From Streptomyces alboflavus (GTDB lineage: Bacteria > Actinomycetota > Actinomycetes > Streptomycetales > Streptomycetaceae): a stretch of DNA of 60,492 bases. Positions 27,169 to 36,999 of this stretch are shown here, in pieces (within the stretch, counting starts at the first letter, position 1; the number at the start of each line of letters is the position of its first letter). The position numbers were made by a program, and so were the translations under genes. Location of the stretch: assembly GCF_000716675.1 (NCBI RefSeq), contig NZ_JNXT01000051.1, forward strand, positions 1 to 60,492, read 5' to 3'. A model generated the notes under the pieces. It ran no database searches and was not told where the DNA came from. It was given only the letters and a program-made list of their open reading frames with translations.

Positions 27169-28917
27169 GTGCCGATCGTGGCTCAGAGCACCGATACCAC
27201 CGACTGGGTCTCCCGCTACGCGGACGAGGTCATCGCCGAGTCGGAGCGTCGTGCCCCGGGCAAACCTGTCGTCGTGGCCTCCGGCCTGTCCCCCTCGGGC
27301 CCCATCCACCTGGGCAACCTCCGCGAGGTCATGACCCCGCACCTGGTCGCCGACGAGATCCGCCGCCGCGGCCACCAGGTCCGGCACCTGATCTCCTGGG
27401 ACGACTACGACCGGTACCGCAAGGTCCCGGCCGGCGTCCCCGGCGTCGACGAGTCCTGGGCCGAGCACATCGGCAGGCCCCTGACGTCGGTGCCCGCGCC
27501 CGCAGGGTCGGCGTACCCGAACTGGGCCGAGCACTTCAAGGCCGCGATGGCCGCGTCCCTCGCCGACCTCGGCGTCGAGTTCGACGGGATCAGCCAGACC
27601 GAGCAGTACACGTCGGGGGCGTACCGCGAGCAGATCCTGCACGCGATGCGGCACCGCGCCGACATCGACGCGATCCTCGACCAGTACCGCACCAAGAAGG
27701 ACCCGGCCAAGGGCAAGAAGCAGCAGAAGCCCGCCGACGAGGCCGAGCTGGAGGCCGCCGAGGGCTCCGGCGCGGCGAGCGAGGACGACGGCAGCGGCGG
27801 CACCGGCGGGTACTTCCCGTACAAGCCCTACTGCGGCGGCTGCGGCAAGGACCTGACCACCGTCACCTCCTACGACGACGACTCCACGGAGCTCGCCTAC
27901 GTCTGCACGGCCTGCGGCTTCGAGGAGACCGTGCGCCTGAGCGAGTTCAACCGCGGCAAGCTGGTCTGGAAGGTCGACTGGCCGATGCGCTGGGCCTACG
28001 AGGGCGTGATCTTCGAGCCCAGCGGCGTGGACCACTCCTCGCCCGGCTCGTCGTTCGTCGTCGGCGGCCAGATCGTGCGGCAGATCTTCGACGGCGTGCA
28101 GCCGATCGGCCCGATGTACGCCTTCGTGGGCATCAGCGGCATGGCCAAGATGTCGTCGTCCCGCGGCGGCGTGCCCACCCCGGCCGACGCCCTGAAGATC
28201 ATGGAGGCGCCGCTCCTGCGCTGGCTGTACGCCCGCCGCAGGCCGAACCAGTCCTTCAAGATCGCCTTCGACCAGGAGATCCAGCGGCTCTACGACGAGT
28301 GGGACAAGCTCGCCGCGAAGGTCGCCGACGGCTCGGTGCTGCCCGCCGACGCCGCCGCCTACACGCGCGCCGTCGGCACCGCCGCGGGACCGCTGCCGAC
28401 GACCCCGCACCCGCTGCCGTACCGCACGCTCGCGTCCGTCGCCGACATCACCGCCGGCGCCGAGGACCAGACCCTGCGCATCCTGTCCGACCTCGACCCG
28501 GCCGACCCGCTCGCCTCCCTCGACGAGGCGCGGCCCCGGCTCGACAAGGCCGAGGCGTGGATCAACACGCACGTCCCCGCCGACCAGCGCACGGTCGTGC
28601 GGGACGAGCCCGACAAGGAGCTGCTCGGCTCCCTCGACGAGGAGGGCCGCGAGTCGCTGCGGCTGCTCCTGGACGGCCTGGACTCGCACTGGTCCCTGGA
28701 CGGCCTGACCCACCTCGTCTACGGCGTCCCCAAGGTCCGCGCGGGCTTCGCCGCCGACGCCGGGCCCAAGGAACTGCCGCCGGAGATCAAGACGGCCCAG
28801 CGGACGTTCTTCGCGCTCCTGTACCACCTGCTCGTGAGCCGGGACACCGGGCCGCGCCTGCCCACGCTGCTGCTCGCGGTGGGGGCGGACCGGGTGCGCA
28901 AGCTGCTCGGCGCGTAG
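27169..28917 (+). CDS. lysS: Lysyl-tRNA synthetase, class I
   Basis: The 582-residue enzyme is the archaeal-type class I LysRS, not the common bacterial class II form. [11 protein letters not shown] is the HIGH motif near residue 44 and [10 protein letters not shown] is the KMSKS motif near residue 327. C-G-G-C...C-T-A-C near residues 222-248 is a zinc ribbon. A low-complexity charged insertion rich in K and E separates the Rossmann halves around residues 178-212. Start GTG 27169 is paired with GAGGA 10 nt upstream; GTG 27178 is an alternative. A strong terminator follows. Confidence 0.97.
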
Positions 28918-29370: not shown

Positions 29371-29508
29371 CTACTTGCAGTATCCGCCGGAATACTGGCC
29401 GGGAACGAAAATGCCCGCGGCGCACTTCACCTTGATGCACTTCTTCGTGTTCTTCGCCTTCAGCGCCCCTTGATTCCGGGGGTACTTGGGTCCGGGGTCC
29501 GCCGTCCT
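29371..29508 (-). other. Coding-like Cys/Lys-rich segment without a start codon
   Basis: Immediately after the stop codon of the 29507-30013 gene, the +2 frame reads 45 residues ending K-C-I-K-V-K-C-A-A-G-I-F-V-P-G-Q-Y-S-G-G and Y-C-K. Almost all third positions are G or C, and the three Cys, many Lys and Gly look like a real small peptide. There is no ATG, GTG or TTG at its head (only a CTG behind AAGGGG), so it may be a frameshift extension of the upstream gene, a gene remnant or chance. Confidence 0.3.
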
Positions 29509-30013
29509 AGGCGCGCCGCCTGCGTCGTACGACGAGGAAGGCGCCCGCTGCGGCCACGGCGACCGCGCCCGCCGCGACCGCGACGACGGCCGTCGTGTTC
29601 GACTCCTCGTCTTCCTGGGCCGCGTCGACACACCGGGAGCCGTCGGCGGGGCCGCCCGCCTCGACCGTCACCGTGCCGGCCTTCGTGTCCTCGCCGGGGT
29701 GCACCGGCTCCGCGAAACGCACGGCGTAGGTGCCGGGTGCGGCGTCGCAGCGGACCCTGGCGTGCGCCTCCAACGAGACCTTGCCCGTGGACCTCAGCTC
29801 CACCGCGTCCACGAACACCTCGGACCGTACGGTCGCGCCGTCGTCGAGCTCCGGGTTCACCGTGGACAACGTGACCCGCGCGCCCGGCGGTACCGAGCCC
29901 GGCGCGACGGTCAGTTCGCCCTTGCCGTCCGCATCCGCGGCAGCGCTCGGAATAGCCGCGAGAGAAAGAGCGAGCGTGAAAGCTCCGACGGTGGCGGCGT
30001 TTATGCGTGGCAT
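29507..30013 (-). CDS. Secreted protein with C-terminal membrane anchor
   Basis: A 168-residue protein. The signal peptide is residues 1-26 (A-F-T-L-A-L-S-L-A-A-I-P-S-A-A-A). The outside domain is beta-rich with two Cys (R-V-R-C-D-A-A and G-S-R-C-V-D-A), probably a disulfide. A C-terminal hydrophobic helix (A-V-V-A-V-A-A-G-A-V-A-V-A-A-A-G) followed by R-R-R-R-R-A keeps it in the membrane. There is no LPXTG sortase motif. The family is not recognised. It lies divergent from the protease gene. Confidence 0.82.
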   Translation of the reverse strand: MPRINAATVGAFTLALSLAAIPSAAADADGKGELTVAPGSVPPGARVTLSTVNPELDDGATVRSEVFVDAVELRSTGKVSLEAHARVRCDAAPGTYAVRFAEPVHPGEDTKAGTVTVEAGGPADGSRCVDAAQEDEESNTTAVVAVAAGAVAVAAAGAFLVVRRRRRA

Positions 30014-30125: not shown

Positions 30126-30192
30126 GTTATCCGGAACGTGATCGAGTCCGTGCCGGGTGAGTTGTCAAAAACCCGCTAACAGAAGGTTTGTT

Positions 30193-32052
30193 GTGCGTAT
30201 TTCTCGTCGGCTCCGTACGGTCGCCGTGGGGGTGGGTGGCGTATTGCTCGCCGCTCTGGCGACCACCGCGTCCGCGGTGGAGAGCAAGGACCAGAGCAAG
30301 GACCAGAGCAAGGGCCGGAGCAAGGCCTCATGGACGGTGGAGGACGCGGAGGAGTTCTGGACGTCCGCGCGCATGCGGTCGGCGACACCGCCACCGGCCG
30401 CGGAGGGCGGGACACCGGGCGGCACCGACTCTGACATCGGCACCGGCACCGGCACCGGCCCCGCGAACGCGGACGCCGGCCCCTCCCACCCCGCGAAGCG
30501 CGGCGCCGCCCGCGCCTCCGGTCCCGCGCAGTACGCGGCGAGCTCCGAGACGTACTACGAAGGCTCCAAGACCATCGGCGTGCTCTACTACGTCGACAAC
30601 GGCATGGCCTCGCACCACTGCACGGCCAGCGTCGTGCACAGCCCCAAGGGCAATCTGATCCTCACCGCCGGGCACTGCGGCAACGGCAGCAAGTACGCCT
30701 TCGTGCCCCAGTACCGCACCGGCAAGCCCGCGTCCCGACAGCCCAACGGCATCTGGGCGATCGACCGCGTCTTCAAGGACCCCCGCCACACCGACACCGG
30801 CCCCGGTTCGAACCTCGACTTCGCCTTCGCGACCGTCAAGCCCGACAAGCTCGGCCGCCAGGTCGAGCAGATCACCGGCGCCAACACCCTCACGCGGACG
30901 CCCTCGTACACCGTGTGGGTCGACGTCATCGGCTACCCGAGGGTCAAGCACGACCCCAAGGACCAGGCGATCAAGTGCCGGACCAAGACGACGCGCCTCA
31001 CCGGATACAGGCAACTGCGCATGGAGTGCGGCGGGTTCCACGGCGGCACCTCCGGCAGCCCCTGGCTGATGAACTACGACAAGAGGAAGAAGACCGGCCA
31101 GGTCGTCGGGAACCTCGGCGGCGCGGGCGGCGGCGGAGCCACCTCCGACGTCTCGTACAGCCCGTACTACGACAACGAGGTGTTCAAGCTCTACCAGGAC
31201 GCCGTCGACAACGTGACCGCGGTGAAGCGGCCGCCGCTGCCCTACGGCCCCGGCACCGGCGAGACCTGGCAGCACGCCAGGCAGCTGGCCTCCGGCGACT
31301 ACACCGGCGACGGCAAGGCCGACCTGCTCGTCGTCTGGAAGGACGGCGAGGTCACCCTCTACACCGGCAACGGCACCGGCGGGTTCTCCGGCGAGCGCCG
31401 CCTCAAGGCGGCCAACAGCACCTGGAAGCACGCCACGACCGTCACCGGCGGCGACTTCACCGGCAACCACACCGCCGACCTCATGGTGCGCTGGTCCGAC
31501 GGCGAGGTCACCCTGTACCCCGACGTGAGCCCCGCCGGATTCGGCCGTGAGATCAAGCTCGCCGACGCCAAGTCCGTCTGGAAGCACGCCGACCAGATCA
31601 CCGCGGGCCGCTTCACCGCCGACAAGCGGACCGACGACCTCGTCGTGCGCTGGAGCGACGGCGAAGTCACCCTCTACAGCGACGTCGACGGCCGCGGCTT
31701 CAAGAAGGAGACCAAGCTCCAGAAGCCCAACGGCACCTGGAAGCACGCCACCCTGCTCACCGGCGGCGACTTCACCGGCAACGCCAACTGGGACATCATC
31801 GTCCGCTGGACCGACGGCAAGCGCACCCTCTACCAGGACGTGAACACCACCGGCCTCGGCAAGAAGACGCAGATGCAGGCGCCCAACGCCCTATGGAAGC
31901 ACGCCCAGGCGATGACCGCGGGCAGCTACACCGCCAACGGACGCCCCGACGACCTCATCGTCCGCTGGAGCGACGGCGAGGTGACCCTCTACGCCGACAC
32001 CGGCACCCGGCTCGGCGCCGAGCGCACCGTCGTCCCGCCGAAGACGTCCTGA
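30193..32052 (+). CDS. Secreted trypsin-like serine protease with five C-terminal repeats
   Basis: A 619-residue exported protein. GTG 30193 follows AGAAGG by 6 nt and opens a signal peptide (R-R-L-R-T-V-A-V-G-V-G-G-V-L-L-A). The protease domain carries the triad H161 (L-T-A-G-H-C), D209 (S-N-L-D-F-A) and S287 (G-G-T-S-G-S-P), with a C142/C162-type disulfide. From about residue 357 to 605 there are five repeats of roughly 50 residues, each with W-(Q/K)-H-A, G-(D/S/R)-(Y/F)-T and D-G-E-V-T-L-Y; they resemble VCBS/FG-GAP-type beta-propeller blades. The repeats probably bind a surface or substrate. It ends at a shared terminator. Confidence 0.92.
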   Translation: MRISRRLRTVAVGVGGVLLAALATTASAVESKDQSKDQSKGRSKASWTVEDAEEFWTSARMRSATPPPAAEGGTPGGTDSDIGTGTGTGPANADAGPSHPAKRGAARASGPAQYAASSETYYEGSKTIGVLYYVDNGMASHHCTASVVHSPKGNLILTAGHCGNGSKYAFVPQYRTGKPASRQPNGIWAIDRVFKDPRHTDTGPGSNLDFAFATVKPDKLGRQVEQITGANTLTRTPSYTVWVDVIGYPRVKHDPKDQAIKCRTKTTRLTGYRQLRMECGGFHGGTSGSPWLMNYDKRKKTGQVVGNLGGAGGGGATSDVSYSPYYDNEVFKLYQDAVDNVTAVKRPPLPYGPGTGETWQHARQLASGDYTGDGKADLLVVWKDGEVTLYTGNGTGGFSGERRLKAANSTWKHATTVTGGDFTGNHTADLMVRWSDGEVTLYPDVSPAGFGREIKLADAKSVWKHADQITAGRFTADKRTDDLVVRWSDGEVTLYSDVDGRGFKKETKLQKPNGTWKHATLLTGGDFTGNANWDIIVRWTDGKRTLYQDVNTTGLGKKTQMQAPNALWKHAQAMTAGSYTANGRPDDLIVRWSDGEVTLYADTGTRLGAERTVVPPKTS

Positions 32053-32102
32053 CGGACCACCAGGGACCACCAGGGCGTCGACGGACGCCCGGTGAGGCCC
32101 GA

Positions 32103-32149
32103 GGGCCTGTCCGATGGGTCCGCGCGGCATCGACCCATCGGACAGGCCC
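32103..32149. terminator. Bidirectional terminator between protease and tail-tube-like gene
   Basis: GGGCCTGTCCGATGGGTC and GACCCATCGGACAGGCCC are perfect 18-base reverse complements with an 11-nt loop. The right arm touches the last base of the stop codon of the minus-strand gene, so the same hairpin can end both transcripts. Confidence 0.9.
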
Positions 32150-32757
32150 TAGCCGACCGCCAGGCTCGCGAACCTGATCGTGACGATCTGGGTGTCGCCG
32201 GTCTGGGCGTTCTCGACCTTGACGACCCGGGGCTCCTGCAAGGTGTACTGCTTCGTCGGGTTGCCCATGGCGTCCAGCATGCTGAGGGACGCCGTCGCGG
32301 GCTGGGTCCTGCCGTCGACCAGGTCGGTGAACTGCTGGGACCGCTCGGCGCCGCGGACCACGGTCACCGTGCCCGCCCTCGGCTCGCCGGGGATGAGCTT
32401 GTTGGACGGGACCTGCTCCGTGACCTGGTCCAACTCGAGGCCGGAGACCGAGCTGAGGGGCTCCGTGGCGCCGTCGACGCTCCACTGGAACTGGTGATTG
32501 GCGAGGGAGTCGCCGCCACCCAGAAGGCCCGGCTCCCCGCCTTCGGCCCGGGAGGACACCTCCGAGCGGCCCTTCGCGCCCTCGGCGCCCTTGTCTGACG
32601 GCTTCGTACCCGACTCGGCCTTCTGGGACGCGACTGAGCCCGACGCGTCGGAGTCCGAGGACCCGGGCCCGCACGCGGTCAGCAGCCCCAGGGACAGCAG
32701 GACGGCGGTGGCCACCCCGGCCATGCGGCGGCGCGAGCTGATGGTGGAACGGGTCAT
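32149..32757 (-). CDS. Lipoprotein with a phage tail-tube (gp19/Pvc1)-like domain
   Basis: A 202-residue protein. The signal peptide and lipobox L-L-T-A-C-G place the lipidated Cys at residue 29. A charged Ser/Gly/Glu spacer runs to about residue 85. Residues 88-202 resemble contractile-injection tail-tube proteins: F-Q-W-S-V-D-G, then S-S-V-S-G-L-E, T-V-T-V-V-R-G, S-L-S-M-L-D-A-M-G-N-P and a final beta strand I-V-T-I-R-F-A. Tail-tube proteins are normally cytoplasmic and have no export signal, so a lipidated version is unusual. ATG 32757 has a GGAG site; the longer frame upstream adds nothing conserved. The assignment rests on motif spacing recognised by eye. Confidence 0.72.
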   Translation of the reverse strand: MTRSTISSRRRMAGVATAVLLSLGLLTACGPGSSDSDASGSVASQKAESGTKPSDKGAEGAKGRSEVSSRAEGGEPGLLGGGDSLANHQFQWSVDGATEPLSSVSGLELDQVTEQVPSNKLIPGEPRAGTVTVVRGAERSQQFTDLVDGRTQPATASLSMLDAMGNPTKQYTLQEPRVVKVENAQTGDTQIVTIRFASLAVG

Positions 32758-32914
32758 GGCGAGACTCCAACGGCTGGGTGAGTCGGACGACTTGAGTCTG
32801 TGAGCCGACCCGTCCCGGCCGCCACAAGCCGCGGGCAAGTTGGGAAGCTGGAACGCGCTGAACCCCGCTGACCAGGTGAAACGAAGCACGGATGGAATGC
32901 GGGGGCGGGACGCC

Positions 32915-34552
32915 CTAGGCGATGTGCTCGGCGTCCTCGTCGAGGGAGCGCTGATAGCGGTCGCGGAAACCGCGCAGGTACGGGCGCAGGGTGCTCTCCG
33001 TCAACGGGCCGCCGGACTGACCCGTCACGCCGTACAGATCCATCAGATACAGGCTGAACTGACGGGCGTTGGGGTAGTCACCCATCTCGCTCACGTACTT
33101 GCGGAAGGCGTTGAAGTACGCCTCCTCGCGGGTCATGTCGTCCGGGAGGCCGGAGCCCTCCGCCGCGGCGGGCTCCGGCAGGGGCTCCGGCTCGGAGGCG
33201 GGCTCGGGGGCCTGCTCCTCGCGCGGGCCGGGGATCAGGTGCGCGCCACCCGCGAGGGGGCGGGTGCGGCCGGGGCCCGCGGGGACGCGGAAACCGGAGC
33301 CGTCGTCGACCACGTCGGCCCGCTGGTCGTGGACCTGCTGAGCCTGCTGGGCGTGTTGAGCCTGCTGGGCTTGGGCTTGAGCCTGGGTCTGGGCCTGGGC
33401 GTGCGCCCGCCGCTCGTGGACCTGCTGCTCGTGGACCTGCTGTTCATAGACCTGCTGGTCGTACGCCTGCTGATCGGCGTACTGCTGCTGCTCGTACGCC
33501 AGTTGCTCGTCGTAGCCCTGCTGCCCGTACCCCTGCTGCTGGGCCTGCTCCTCGTACCACTCGTCGTACGGGGCCTCCGGGTCGTACGACACCGGTCCTT
33601 CGGCGTACTGCTGCGGCGGCTGCGGGGCCGCGAACCAGGGGCTCACGTGGGCGCCGGGCTGCTGCTCGCCGGGGTTCGGGTGCTCCTCGGCGGGCGGGTG
33701 CTCCTCGGGGGCGGGCTCCGGCTCCGGGGCGGCCTGGGCCTCCGGGCGGGGCTCCGGGGACGGCGCCTTGGTGAGGGCCGCAGGGGTCTGGGGCTCGGCC
33801 TTCGTCAGCTCCGGCTTGGGAGTGGGGGTGGGGGCGGTGGCCTGGACGGGCGGCAGGACGGGCGGCTCGATGCCGGCGGCGGCGAGGCCCGCGGGGGCGG
33901 TCTCCGCGAGCGGGACGCCGTAGCGAGCAAGGCGCAGCGGCATCAGGGACTCCACCGGGGCCTTGCGGCGCCAGCCGCGGCCGAAGCGGGAGCGCAGCCG
34001 GGCCTGGTACACCAGGCGCTCCTGCTCCAACTTGATGACCTGGTCGTAGGAGCGCAGCTCCCACAGCTTCATGCGGCGCCACAGCAGGAACGTCGGCACG
34101 GGGGAGAGCAGCCAGCGCGTCATGCGCACGCCCTCCATGTGCTTGTCGGCCGTGATGTCCGCGATCCGCCCGATCGCGTGCCGGGCCGCCTCGACCGCGA
34201 CCACGAAGAGCACCGGGATGACCGCGTGCATGCCGACGCCCAGCGGGTCGGGCCAGGCCGCCGCGCCGTTGAACGCGATCGTGGCCGCCGTCAGGAGCCA
34301 CGCCGTCTGGCGAAGGAGCGGGAAGGGGATCCTGATCCAGGTCAGCAGGAGGTCGAGCGCCAGCAGGACGCAGATGCCCGCGTCGATGCCGATGGGGAAG
34401 ACCATCGAGAAGGTGCCGAAGCCCTTCTTCTCGGCCAGCTCCCGCACGGCCGCGTACGACCCCGCGAAACCGATCCCGGCGATGACCACCGCACCGAAGA
34501 CGACGACCCCGATGAGTATCCGGTGCGTGCGTGTCAGCTGCATCGCGGCCAC
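32915..34552 (-). CDS. DUF2637 membrane protein with Gln-rich cytoplasmic region
   Basis: A 545-residue protein. Four hydrophobic helices lie in residues 10-125 (DUF2637, as in SpdB-like and related actinobacterial proteins), then a basic segment (L-W-R-R-M-K-L-W-E-L), a Pro/Glu-rich linker, a repetitive Gln/Tyr/Ala-rich stretch (Q-A-Y-D-Q-Q-V-Y-E-Q-Q and Q-A-Q-A-Q-A-Q) and a folded C-terminus (Y-F-N-A-F-R-K-Y-V-S-E-M-G) that looks like a small helical DNA- or protein-binding domain. GTG 34552 has GGGAGG 8 nt upstream; ATG 34543 is the alternative. Plasmid-spread proteins share the DUF, but no conjugation genes are nearby. Confidence 0.85.
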   Translation of the reverse strand: MAAMQLTRTHRILIGVVVFGAVVIAGIGFAGSYAAVRELAEKKGFGTFSMVFPIGIDAGICVLLALDLLLTWIRIPFPLLRQTAWLLTAATIAFNGAAAWPDPLGVGMHAVIPVLFVVAVEAARHAIGRIADITADKHMEGVRMTRWLLSPVPTFLLWRRMKLWELRSYDQVIKLEQERLVYQARLRSRFGRGWRRKAPVESLMPLRLARYGVPLAETAPAGLAAAGIEPPVLPPVQATAPTPTPKPELTKAEPQTPAALTKAPSPEPRPEAQAAPEPEPAPEEHPPAEEHPNPGEQQPGAHVSPWFAAPQPPQQYAEGPVSYDPEAPYDEWYEEQAQQQGYGQQGYDEQLAYEQQQYADQQAYDQQVYEQQVHEQQVHERRAHAQAQTQAQAQAQQAQHAQQAQQVHDQRADVVDDGSGFRVPAGPGRTRPLAGGAHLIPGPREEQAPEPASEPEPLPEPAAAEGSGLPDDMTREEAYFNAFRKYVSEMGDYPNARQFSLYLMDLYGVTGQSGGPLTESTLRPYLRGFRDRYQRSLDEDAEHIA

Positions 34553-34679
34553 CCGCGAACCCCTCCCTGCCTGTGCCCGCCCGGCTGTCCCGGTCCGGCG
34601 TGTTGCGAGCGACAGCCTGGCACATGTGTGCGTGCGCCTGTGTGCCGGTACGGCAGCCGGGGCGTGACCGGGCACGACA

Positions 34680-34709
34680 GGAGCCCGGCCGCGTGGGCGG
34701 CCGGGCTCC
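34680..34709 (-). terminator. Terminator of the DUF3558 gene
   Basis: GGAGCCCGGCCGC and GCGGCCGGGCTCC form a perfect 13-bp stem with a GTGG loop, about 60 nt beyond the stop codon of the 34768-35691 gene. Confidence 0.82.
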
Positions 34710-34767
34710 GGTAACTCCTGGGCGTGAGCGCCGAGTTGGTGCTGTCCTCCGGGTGAGAGGGCTCGGG

Positions 34768-35691
34768 CTACTCGCTCTTGGGCTTCGCGTCGGTCTTCGG
34801 CTTCGCGCCGGAGCCGTCCGAGGCCTTGTCGTCCTCGGCGGGCTTGTCGCCCTTGGGGTCCGCGGAGTCCTTGTCGTCCTTGGCCGAGCCGGACGGCTTG
34901 CCGGACTTGTCAGAATTGTCGGTGCCACCCGCCCCGTTCGCCGCCGCGACCGCCGCGACGGCCTCCTTCGCGGCCTTCTGGGTGTCCTTGGCGAGGGACG
35001 CCTCGTCGGGGGACTTGTCGCCGGCGAGGCCCGCGCCGTTGTAGTCGACCGTGACGACCGCGTTCTCCACGCGGGCCACGAGCGTCTGCTGCTTGAAGGT
35101 GTCCTTCTCCTTCTTGACGTCGTAGCTCACCAGAGTCGCCTGGTCGCCCACACCCGGCACCGGGGTGGTCTTGACGCCCTTGGCGTCCTTGGCCGCCTGC
35201 GCGTCGGTGACCTGCTTGGTGAAGTTGCCCTGGGCGCGCTTGGCGCCGCTGCCGAGGGACTGGTCGGACTCGAAGCGGTTCAGCGAGACGCGCAGCCAGC
35301 GGAACTGGGAGCCGTCGACGCCGTTGTTGTCGAGGCTGTCCCAGGTGCAGTTGCCGCGCGTCGAGACGTCGTCCGACGTGCCCGTCTTGCCCGCCTTGTT
35401 CTTCGTGGCGGGCACGAGGTCGCCGAGGGTCTTCTTGGAGAGCGTCGCGCAGGGCTCGGGCAGCTTGGCGAACGCGGCCTTCTCCACGGTCGCCGCCTTG
35501 TCGCCGGAGCCCGCGGAGCCCTCGGATCCGCCGGAGGCCGACGCGGAGGCTTCGCTGCCGGAGTCCTTCTTGTCCCCGTCAGAACCGGAGTCGCTGCTGC
35601 AGGCGGAGGCGAAGAGGATCACCGGTACGGCGGCCGCGCCCACCAGGACGCGGGTGAGTCGCTGACGCTGTCGCTGTGCGGGTCGGTGCAT
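34768..35691 (-). CDS. DUF3558 lipoprotein, first paralogue
   Basis: A 307-residue lipoprotein with lipobox A-S-A-C-S-S near residue 31, an acidic Ser/Gly/Lys spacer and a DUF3558 domain starting around A-A-F-A-K-L-P-E-P-C-A-T-L. Two Cys (E-P-C-A and G-N-C-T-W) are typical of the domain. An acidic, Lys/Asp/Gly-rich C-terminal tail of about 75 residues (K-S-G-K-P-S-G-S-A-K) follows. The function of DUF3558 is unknown; mycobacterial relatives are cell-surface lipoproteins. It is paralogous to the next gene, 124 nt upstream. ATG 35691 has a GAAGGA site. Confidence 0.87.
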   Translation of the reverse strand: MHRPAQRQRQRLTRVLVGAAAVPVILFASACSSDSGSDGDKKDSGSEASASASGGSEGSAGSGDKAATVEKAAFAKLPEPCATLSKKTLGDLVPATKNKAGKTGTSDDVSTRGNCTWDSLDNNGVDGSQFRWLRVSLNRFESDQSLGSGAKRAQGNFTKQVTDAQAAKDAKGVKTTPVPGVGDQATLVSYDVKKEKDTFKQQTLVARVENAVVTVDYNGAGLAGDKSPDEASLAKDTQKAAKEAVAAVAAANGAGGTDNSDKSGKPSGSAKDDKDSADPKGDKPAEDDKASDGSGAKPKTDAKPKSE

Positions 35692-35815
35692 GGTTCCTTC
35701 ACTCGTGTTCGCTCTTGGCGGCCGTGCCGTTCGATGGGGTCGTTGAGCCACCGTACGCGGTGTGCGACGCGGGTGACCCGGCTTCCGGAGAGCCCGTACG
35801 CCCTCGGAACGGCCC

Positions 35816-36766
35816 TCAGCCGTCGAACCTGTCGACCAGGTTCTCCGCCAGTTCCCGCGCGTTGTCCTGCATTTCCTTGGAGTCCGGGACCTCGGTCCTG
35901 CGGGCCGGCTGCTCGTCGTACGACACCGTCACGATCACGTTCGACGTGCGGAACACCACAGTCACGGTCCGCTGCCGGGTCGCCGACGCGGCCGTGGTCA
36001 GCACGTCGTCCAGGAACGCCTCGTCGCCGAGGTCGTCCAGGGTGCGCGGCTCGTACCCGGCGGGAGTCCCGTCGTCCGCCGAGGCCGCGCCGCCGTCGGG
36101 CTCCTCGTCCGCCGCGGCGCCGTCGCCCTTCTTCGCGGAGGCGTGGGCGGCGGCGGGGGCGCCCTGAGCGCGCGGAGAGCCGGAACTGTCTGATTTATCC
36201 GAACTGCCCGGCTTGCCGGAACCCTTGGGGCCGTCGGACCCGCCCGAACCCTCGGGCTCCTCCGTGTCGCCGCCGCCCCCGTCACCCTCGTCACCTTCAC
36301 CCGACCCCGAGGACGGCGGCTCCGGGATGCCCGCCTCCCGCAGCTTCGTCCGGTAGAGCTCCTGCGCCCGGGTGTCATCGCTGACCGTCCCGTCGTACGA
36401 CACCACGCGCTCGAAGTCGACCAGCAGATGATGCGTCGCGTCCGCCGACTCGGACTTCCAGCGGCAGCCCACACGCCGGTCAGTGTCGTACGTCACCGTG
36501 GCGGAGCCCGCGTACGCCTTCTCGCGCTGCTTGGCGTCCTCGATGTCCTTCAGGCCCGGCAGCATCGAGTCAAGGGTCGAGCTGTCGACGGCGCCGCAGG
36601 GCTCAGGCAGCGTGCGGTACTTGCCGGGCTCCGCGGCCGCCGTGGAGCTGCCGGAGTCGCCCGACTTGCCGTCGTCGCCCTCGCCAGTCCCCGAACCACC
36701 GGTACAACCGGCGAGCAGCGCCACCAGGAGCGCGGCTGTGCCCGGTACGTAGACCCTCCGCTGCAC
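35816..36766 (-). CDS. DUF3558 lipoprotein, second paralogue
   Basis: A 316-residue lipoprotein from GTG 36766 behind GAGGAG. The lipobox is L-L-A-G-C-T near residue 20. The DUF3558 domain (L-P-E-P-C-G-A-V-D and G-C-R-W-K-S) is split by a long Gly/Ser/Asp-rich insertion at about residues 160-240. The C-terminus ends with a helical R-E-L-A-E-N-L-V-D-R-F. The shared order of motifs with the neighbouring paralogue shows tandem duplication. Both genes are transcribed away from rtcB. Confidence 0.87.
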   Translation of the reverse strand: MQRRVYVPGTAALLVALLAGCTGGSGTGEGDDGKSGDSGSSTAAAEPGKYRTLPEPCGAVDSSTLDSMLPGLKDIEDAKQREKAYAGSATVTYDTDRRVGCRWKSESADATHHLLVDFERVVSYDGTVSDDTRAQELYRTKLREAGIPEPPSSGSGEGDEGDGGGGDTEEPEGSGGSDGPKGSGKPGSSDKSDSSGSPRAQGAPAAAHASAKKGDGAAADEEPDGGAASADDGTPAGYEPRTLDDLGDEAFLDDVLTTAASATRQRTVTVVFRTSNVIVTVSYDEQPARRTEVPDSKEMQDNARELAENLVDRFDG

Positions 36767-36999
36767 CGTGCTGGCTCCTCTCGACGTGGATCGACGTGGA
36801 CGGGTCCGGCCGACCCGTGCGGGCCGGACCACCGGGCCTGTCCGGCCTGGTTATTCGGTTGCCGCCGACGGACGGCCGGTGGACACAATGTGTATCGCAC
36901 GCGCCGCTGTGGATGCCGGTCCGTTATCCCATACGTCGACCTTGGCACCGGTATTTGCGCTTCAAGTCTTTTGTTGTTGTACGGGGGAAAGAGGAAGCT

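Follow-up and report, generated by a model that had tools for sequence, protein, structure and literature searches.

Gene and domain architecture

Positions 1 to 60,492 of contig NZ_JNXT01000051.1 of Streptomyces alboflavus (GCF_000716675.1), hereafter the window, include a minus-strand gene (32149..32757) for a predicted lipoprotein of 202 residues, P0001, with a domain of the type that forms the inner tube of contractile injection systems (CIS). Its translation is related to 28 database proteins and six further lipoproteins. The open reading frame (ORF) runs from an ATG at 32757 to a stop codon at 32149–32151. A longer version starting from a GTG at 32889 (246 residues) is unlikely because the relatives start at the equivalent ATG, with GGAG before it. 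The protein is made up of a predicted signal peptide containing RRR (residues 1–28) with the lipobox cysteine C29 (32671..32757, minus), a linker (residues 30–85; 32503..32670, minus) and a tail-tube domain of the gp19/Hcp fold (residues 86–202; 32152..32502, minus). The initial annotation, which named no strand, had described it as a lipoprotein with a phage tail-tube-like domain, and the motifs on which this was based (SVSGLE, TVTVVRG, LDAMGNP, and LLTAC with C29) are all present in the translation.

P0001 matched PF06841 (T4 gp19) over residues 87–184 with an E-value of 4.2e-5 and a score of 23.8 bits, which falls short of the curated cut-off (28.2), and TIGR02241 at 0.0019, likewise under its cut-off. 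The best PDB sequence match was the CIS tube of Streptomyces coelicolor (E 3e-4), while PHROGs returned three weak matches, all to the N-terminal part of the protein and none to a tail family. The family-level evidence is what makes the tail-tube homology decisive. PF06841 was matched by 26 of 31 lipoprotein family members at E≤0.001 (best 8.8e-13), and a profile built from the 31 members found the CIS tube 8bl4 at E 8e-18, the next best match being at 8e-4. In the AlphaFold model residues 86–202 are beta-rich with one short helix, the strands lying between 89 and 201, and residues 30–84 are predicted to be disordered, with a predicted local distance difference test (pLDDT) score below 50; a pLDDT of 90 was reached by 77 of the 202 residues. 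Foldseek and VIA-align, for which the best 50 matches of each were used, matched the model to 9gts_1a, to Hcp and to the tubes of the Photorhabdus virulence cassette (PVC) and the antifeeding prophage (AFP). Sequence and model thus agree on a predicted tail-tube/Hcp fold for residues 86–202.

Distribution of the lipoprotein family

A search with P0001 gave the 28 database proteins, and one with the divergent P0029 added the six lipoproteins and four plain tubes. Three of the 35 lipoprotein-type rows, which include P0001, were left out (P0024, P0026 and P0027, with altered, missing or damaged N-termini, that of P0026 possibly just a wrongly called start). The 32 full-length rows, P0001 and the near-identical P0002 among them, all have an LTAC lipobox and an RR pair as judged by pattern, and the layout of a lipoprotein signal (positive n-region, hydrophobic h-region, lipobox) is found in the family. 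The initial annotation had made its proposal depend on tail-tube similarity and on a signal peptide in the orthologues; the similarity was found and the signal peptide is present in the relatives. Some of these already carry the database label 'phage tail protein' or 'Lipoprotein', and all of the named lipoprotein rows are from Streptomyces.

A profile search of 392 Streptomyces genomes, in which the best eight candidates per genome were scored and matches were listed down to an E-value of about 1e-15, found a full-length copy in seven (aligned from the first model position, free of stops, E≤6.1e-53), so that the gene is rare. The next matches, from E 2e-32, start at position 4 or later and are partial, covering the later part, or interrupted by stops, and the weaker matches that were examined were CIS tubes. 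Among 293 genomes sampled from the order there were two full-length copies, both in Streptomyces and already among the seven, and ten matches outside Streptomyces (E 6.7e-14 to 1.2e-30), which are tube-like and all start at position 43 or later. Sixteen plasmid records matched, all from S. clavuligerus and over residues 83–202 only (37.6%), and none of them holds a full-length copy.

L060–L064 had been suspected of encoding further lipoprotein tubes and turned out to encode plain tubes. The L064 gene (6280–6720, minus) belongs to a second Streptomyces lineage. Judged from ORF starts, no obvious sheath gene is found by it among the ORFs listed in 12 kb, and its relatives in L060–L062 adjoin sheath-like genes.

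Probable origin from CIS tubes

In a 73-row tree, where the distant group consisted of second, adaptor-type gp19 proteins, the 31 lipoproteins formed one clade (100/100) that fell inside the Streptomyces CIS tubes, with support of 94/84 and 96/98 for the enclosing forks. As there is a single lipoprotein clade, the signal peptide and linker would have been acquired once by a tube gene. The join can be located in the alignment, where P0029 has LQPGDALASHNFGL past its linker and the tube P0037 starts MSLQPGDALASHNFGL. On the sequence evidence, a lipoprotein signal and a flexible linker came to stand in front of a tube-type gene in a single fusion, with the junction where the tube itself begins.

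The basal lipoproteins retain the loop joining strands 2 and 3 in its longer form; the main clade, including P0001, has lost about 8 residues of this loop, together with at least 6 near the C-terminus. A 6-residue segment behind the helix has been lost in all 31 lipoproteins compared, including the basal members. We scored as tube-conserved the 95 positions whose conservation in 31 tubes is 90% or more, and as kept those found in at least 80% of the 31 lipoproteins. Only 24 were kept, while 60 were replaced and 11 deleted in most. Sixteen of the kept positions are Gly, Pro or hydrophobic/Tyr; the others are D7, E24, R68, S73, D101, K108, K119 and T138. The tube motifs ARKN and RNAWCS and the C-terminal EE are lost. 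The predicted fold has been kept with most tube-conserved positions altered and the loops shortened, and the tree and alignment together support the exaptation of a CIS-type tube that had been suggested.

Selection

Codon likelihood analysis of eight main-clade genes (F3x4) gave omega values (dN/dS) of 0.24 for the domain, 0.59 for the linker and 0.25 for the signal peptide, and omega=1 was rejected for the domain (2dlnL 64.5, with branch lengths rescaled only). The tubes gave 0.068, the value for the lipoprotein domain being about 3.5 times higher. Purifying selection keeps the lipoprotein gene, more loosely than it does the tubes. Diversifying selection, as in an arms race, was considered when the Nei-Gojobori method gave a median dN/dS of 0.98 for the domain over 28 pairs, versus 0.24 for the tubes (pS 0.15–0.25). 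This signal was discarded as an artefact of extreme third-position G+C because the likelihood estimate was 0.24 and neither M2a nor M8 brought a gain.

Flanking DNA and genomic context

Directly upstream of the gene is a stretch of conserved DNA (32768..32915, minus), probably a promoter or control region, that is shared with L041–L044 despite differing surrounding genes. The window resembles L041 over 131 bp, L044 over 148 bp and L042 over 143 bp, at 83% in each case. Across the subgroup formed by the window and L041–L044 the similar stretches are 131–165 bp long at 79–87%, up to 231 bp in one pair. L045–L047 form a second subgroup (74–76%), and the similarity between the two is limited to some 25 bp at the ribosome site. 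No such similarity was found for L048 and L049. The possibility of a shared operator elsewhere was considered: within the same genome a search found no second copy of the upstream stretch, and a 15-base motif taken from it gave five matches including itself, versus one for the reversed control. Directly after the stop codon a strong hairpin (32103..32148, minus) is likely to be a terminator; the fold of 32060–32170, examined at the window locus only, had a z-score of -4.5 against 200 shuffles. An Rfam scan returned two sub-threshold animal microRNA models and nothing else.

Downstream similarity is absent between loci except in the sister pair L042/L043, whose neighbours are common throughout. 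L049 and the 7.7–25 kb region of the window have 12 gene groups in common, and the L049 lipoprotein gene adjoins hemD, some 15 kb off its place in the window, indicating a similar chromosomal region but a different site. The other pairs among the window and the named loci gave single paralogue-type matches only. Pfam was used to scan 29 proteins from the 3–4 genes around each of eight of the nine named loci, L043 being omitted as the sister of L042; the lysS product of the window was scanned as a thirtieth. These neighbours are of common kinds (racemase, aminotransferase, two-component genes, PhoU, an ATP-binding cassette ATPase, LysR regulators and hem genes), three of the 29 having no Pfam match. 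A mobile element was considered, and no integrase or transposase family was found among the 29. The differing sites and the conserved upstream DNA suggest that the gene keeps its control region as its site changes, and no mobile element is apparent.

In the window the gene lies in a stretch of about 4 kb between lysS (ends at 28917) and a DUF2637 gene (ends at 32915). In seven of 11 relatives' loci lysS and the DUF2637 gene are convergent and 66–352 bp apart, with a small ORF between them in one; lysS was not found within the examined stretch in the other four. The same 4-kb stretch holds a gene for a trypsin-like protein with FG-GAP repeats (30157–32052, plus), which adjoins the lipoprotein gene, and one for a small protein (29507–30013, minus) with an apparent signal peptide, a hydrophobic segment at the C-terminus with Arg residues after it and a weak Gram_pos_anchor match (E 0.068). 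On the other side, 32915–36832 (minus) comprises the DUF2637 gene and, upstream of it, two lipoprotein-like genes, one with a weak DUF3558 match. A similar lipoprotein gene is found beside DUF2637 in relatives, making this a conserved group.

Relation to the resident CIS

The sheath, adaptor, spike and gp25-like proteins of the same genome's own CIS were used to search the window and the nine named loci (5 to 10 kb on each side). No such gene was found at E≤1e-3, nor was there a second tube gene. The initial annotation's statement that the gene lies outside any injection-system cluster therefore stands for these ten loci and needs qualifying for the genome, where a CIS cluster is present on a different contig (C18).

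A sheath gene is present in four of the seven carriers. In the other three, one of which is a 1040-contig assembly of 95% completeness, neither a sheath (E≤1e-10) nor a gp19 protein (E≤0.01) was found. Among 199 background genomes, which include five of the carriers, a clear sheath was found in 95 at E≤1e-160 and in 130 at E≤1e-60. The published frequency, as given in the available text of PMC8505568, is higher (94 of 116 completed genomes). An association with a resident CIS was thus looked for and not found (4/7 versus 95/199 or 94/116), and carriers are not enriched for CIS in this small sample (n=7). The sequences place the gene as free-standing, located at chromosomal sites that differ between species, and present also where there is no detectable resident CIS.

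Interpretation

Taken jointly, the descent, the architecture and the independence from the resident CIS indicate that the lipoprotein is probably a domesticated CIS inner-tube subunit. An origin from within the Streptomyces CIS tubes is favoured by the tree. Weighing against this account, the loop around residues 105–128 is poorly predicted in both models, the tree program flagged long branches, and forcing all tubes into one clade costs 6.9 log units, which the approximately unbiased (AU) test does not reject (p-AU 0.277), so that a sister position is allowed. Here a tube subunit would have parted from its machine and acquired a signal for export and lipidation, and selection would have preserved it as an independent gene in a scattering of Streptomyces, not all of which have a detectable CIS. 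The succession from tube to basal lipoproteins with the longer loop to the main clade without it offers a graded series for the repurposing of a machine part.

The protein would be exported, possibly folded via the twin-arginine translocation (Tat) pathway, since the RR pair is conserved. Lipidation at C29 would tether it to the outer face of the cytoplasmic membrane, and the tube-fold domain, monomeric or in a single ring, would be held out by the linker into the wall zone. The role that we tentatively rank first is that of a tethered tail mimic, which may engage incoming tails or CIS tubes by their distal parts, hindering penetration at the membrane, like superinfection-exclusion lipoproteins. 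It is placed first because the domain derives from the part on which tail components assemble, because extramembrane lipoproteins are known to stop injection (Ltp; PMC3952083, in the portion available) and because the gene is scattered among genomes in the way of an accessory gene. Such an anti-tail role is weakened by the lack of positive selection (M2a-M1a 0, M8-M7 0 to 0.4), of any obvious defence gene among the 29 scanned neighbours, of any match in 50,697 phage records and, by three peptide patterns, of any relative in viral contigs. About as likely, and equally tentative, is a generic envelope function in which the tube fold serves as a stable scaffold binding a wall polymer, a metabolite or an envelope protein. 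The missing link to the resident CIS or to phages and the purifying selection without diversification would suit it, but no neighbour or conserved partner hints at any ligand.

The domain might still oligomerise into hexameric rings or short tubes on the outer face of the membrane, as a conduit or scaffold. This is doubtful, given the replaced and deleted positions and the shortened loops, which would lower the odds of a stacked tube; a full tube looks unlikely because so few tube-conserved positions survive, and a single ring may still form. It is a fairly improbable idea, too, that a part of the cell's own injection machine has become a lipid-anchored surface ring capping or jamming phage tails and rival injection tubes. 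An accessory role for the cell's own CIS, such as membrane docking or an exit ring for the resident particle, would fit the tube-type domain and the need of the S. coelicolor CIS for the membrane protein CisA for firing (available text of PMC12237407), but it is very unlikely in view of the three carriers with neither sheath nor gp19 protein, a frequency of sheath genes among all seven carriers that is not above the background and the absence of CIS genes from the ten loci. Least probable of all is a decaying duplicate without function. The sparse distribution, the raised omega and the three N-terminally altered or damaged rows of 35 are what decay might leave, but omega is well below 1, the lipobox is present in all 32 full-length rows and the upstream DNA is conserved within subgroups. 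As a surface factor that may be linked to attack by phages or CIS, the lipoprotein is a candidate open to testing.

Comparison with known systems

Tail-tube proteins are known as cytoplasmically made parts of phage tails, type VI secretion systems (T6SS) and CIS. With this class (PF06841; Cis1a, Pvc1, gp19) the lipoprotein shares the profile similarity and the predicted tube fold, and it departs from it in having a signal peptide (by pattern) and in lacking sheath or baseplate neighbours and the tube-conserved residues. Hcp (7yw0, 9vne, 9qpe) has the compact tube fold in common with it and gave the highest structural scores among the matches listed, but with 9–15% identity in those matches; Hcp is part of the T6SS and is not known to be a lipoprotein. 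Ltp-type proteins are helical, in contrast to the tube fold predicted here. CisA is not known to be tube-derived.

In the searched literature, which excludes most subscription journals and bioRxiv, no tube-derived lipoprotein was found described. The word 'lipoprotein' is absent from the available main text of PMC12237407, PMC10066040 and PMC8505568 and occurs once, in a reference, in that of PMC10286715, also on Streptomyces CIS. Ltp of TP-J34 is, in the accessible part of PMC3952083, a lipoprotein tethered outside the membrane and scattered in genomes, as predicted here, with the tape measure protein as its target according to the title of a reference cited there. It differs in being phage-encoded, within a lysogeny module, whereas no match to the present lipoprotein was found in 50,697 phage records, nor, by three peptide patterns, any relative in viral contigs. 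CisA is likewise a membrane protein tied to a Streptomyces CIS (PMC12237407, available text).

The closest counterpart is Cis1a, described in the available portions of PMC12237407 and PMC10066040 as the inner tube of the S. coelicolor CIS. The CIS tube stays in the cytoplasm (PMC10066040, same portion) and its gene lies beside a sheath gene, whereas the lipoprotein has a predicted lipobox and linker, is encoded alone and has lost most tube-conserved positions. The two are homologous in domain and predicted fold (PDB 8bl4, 9gts), and the relatives P0025, P0028 and P0029 have 43–44% identity to the Streptomyces CIS tube L063.
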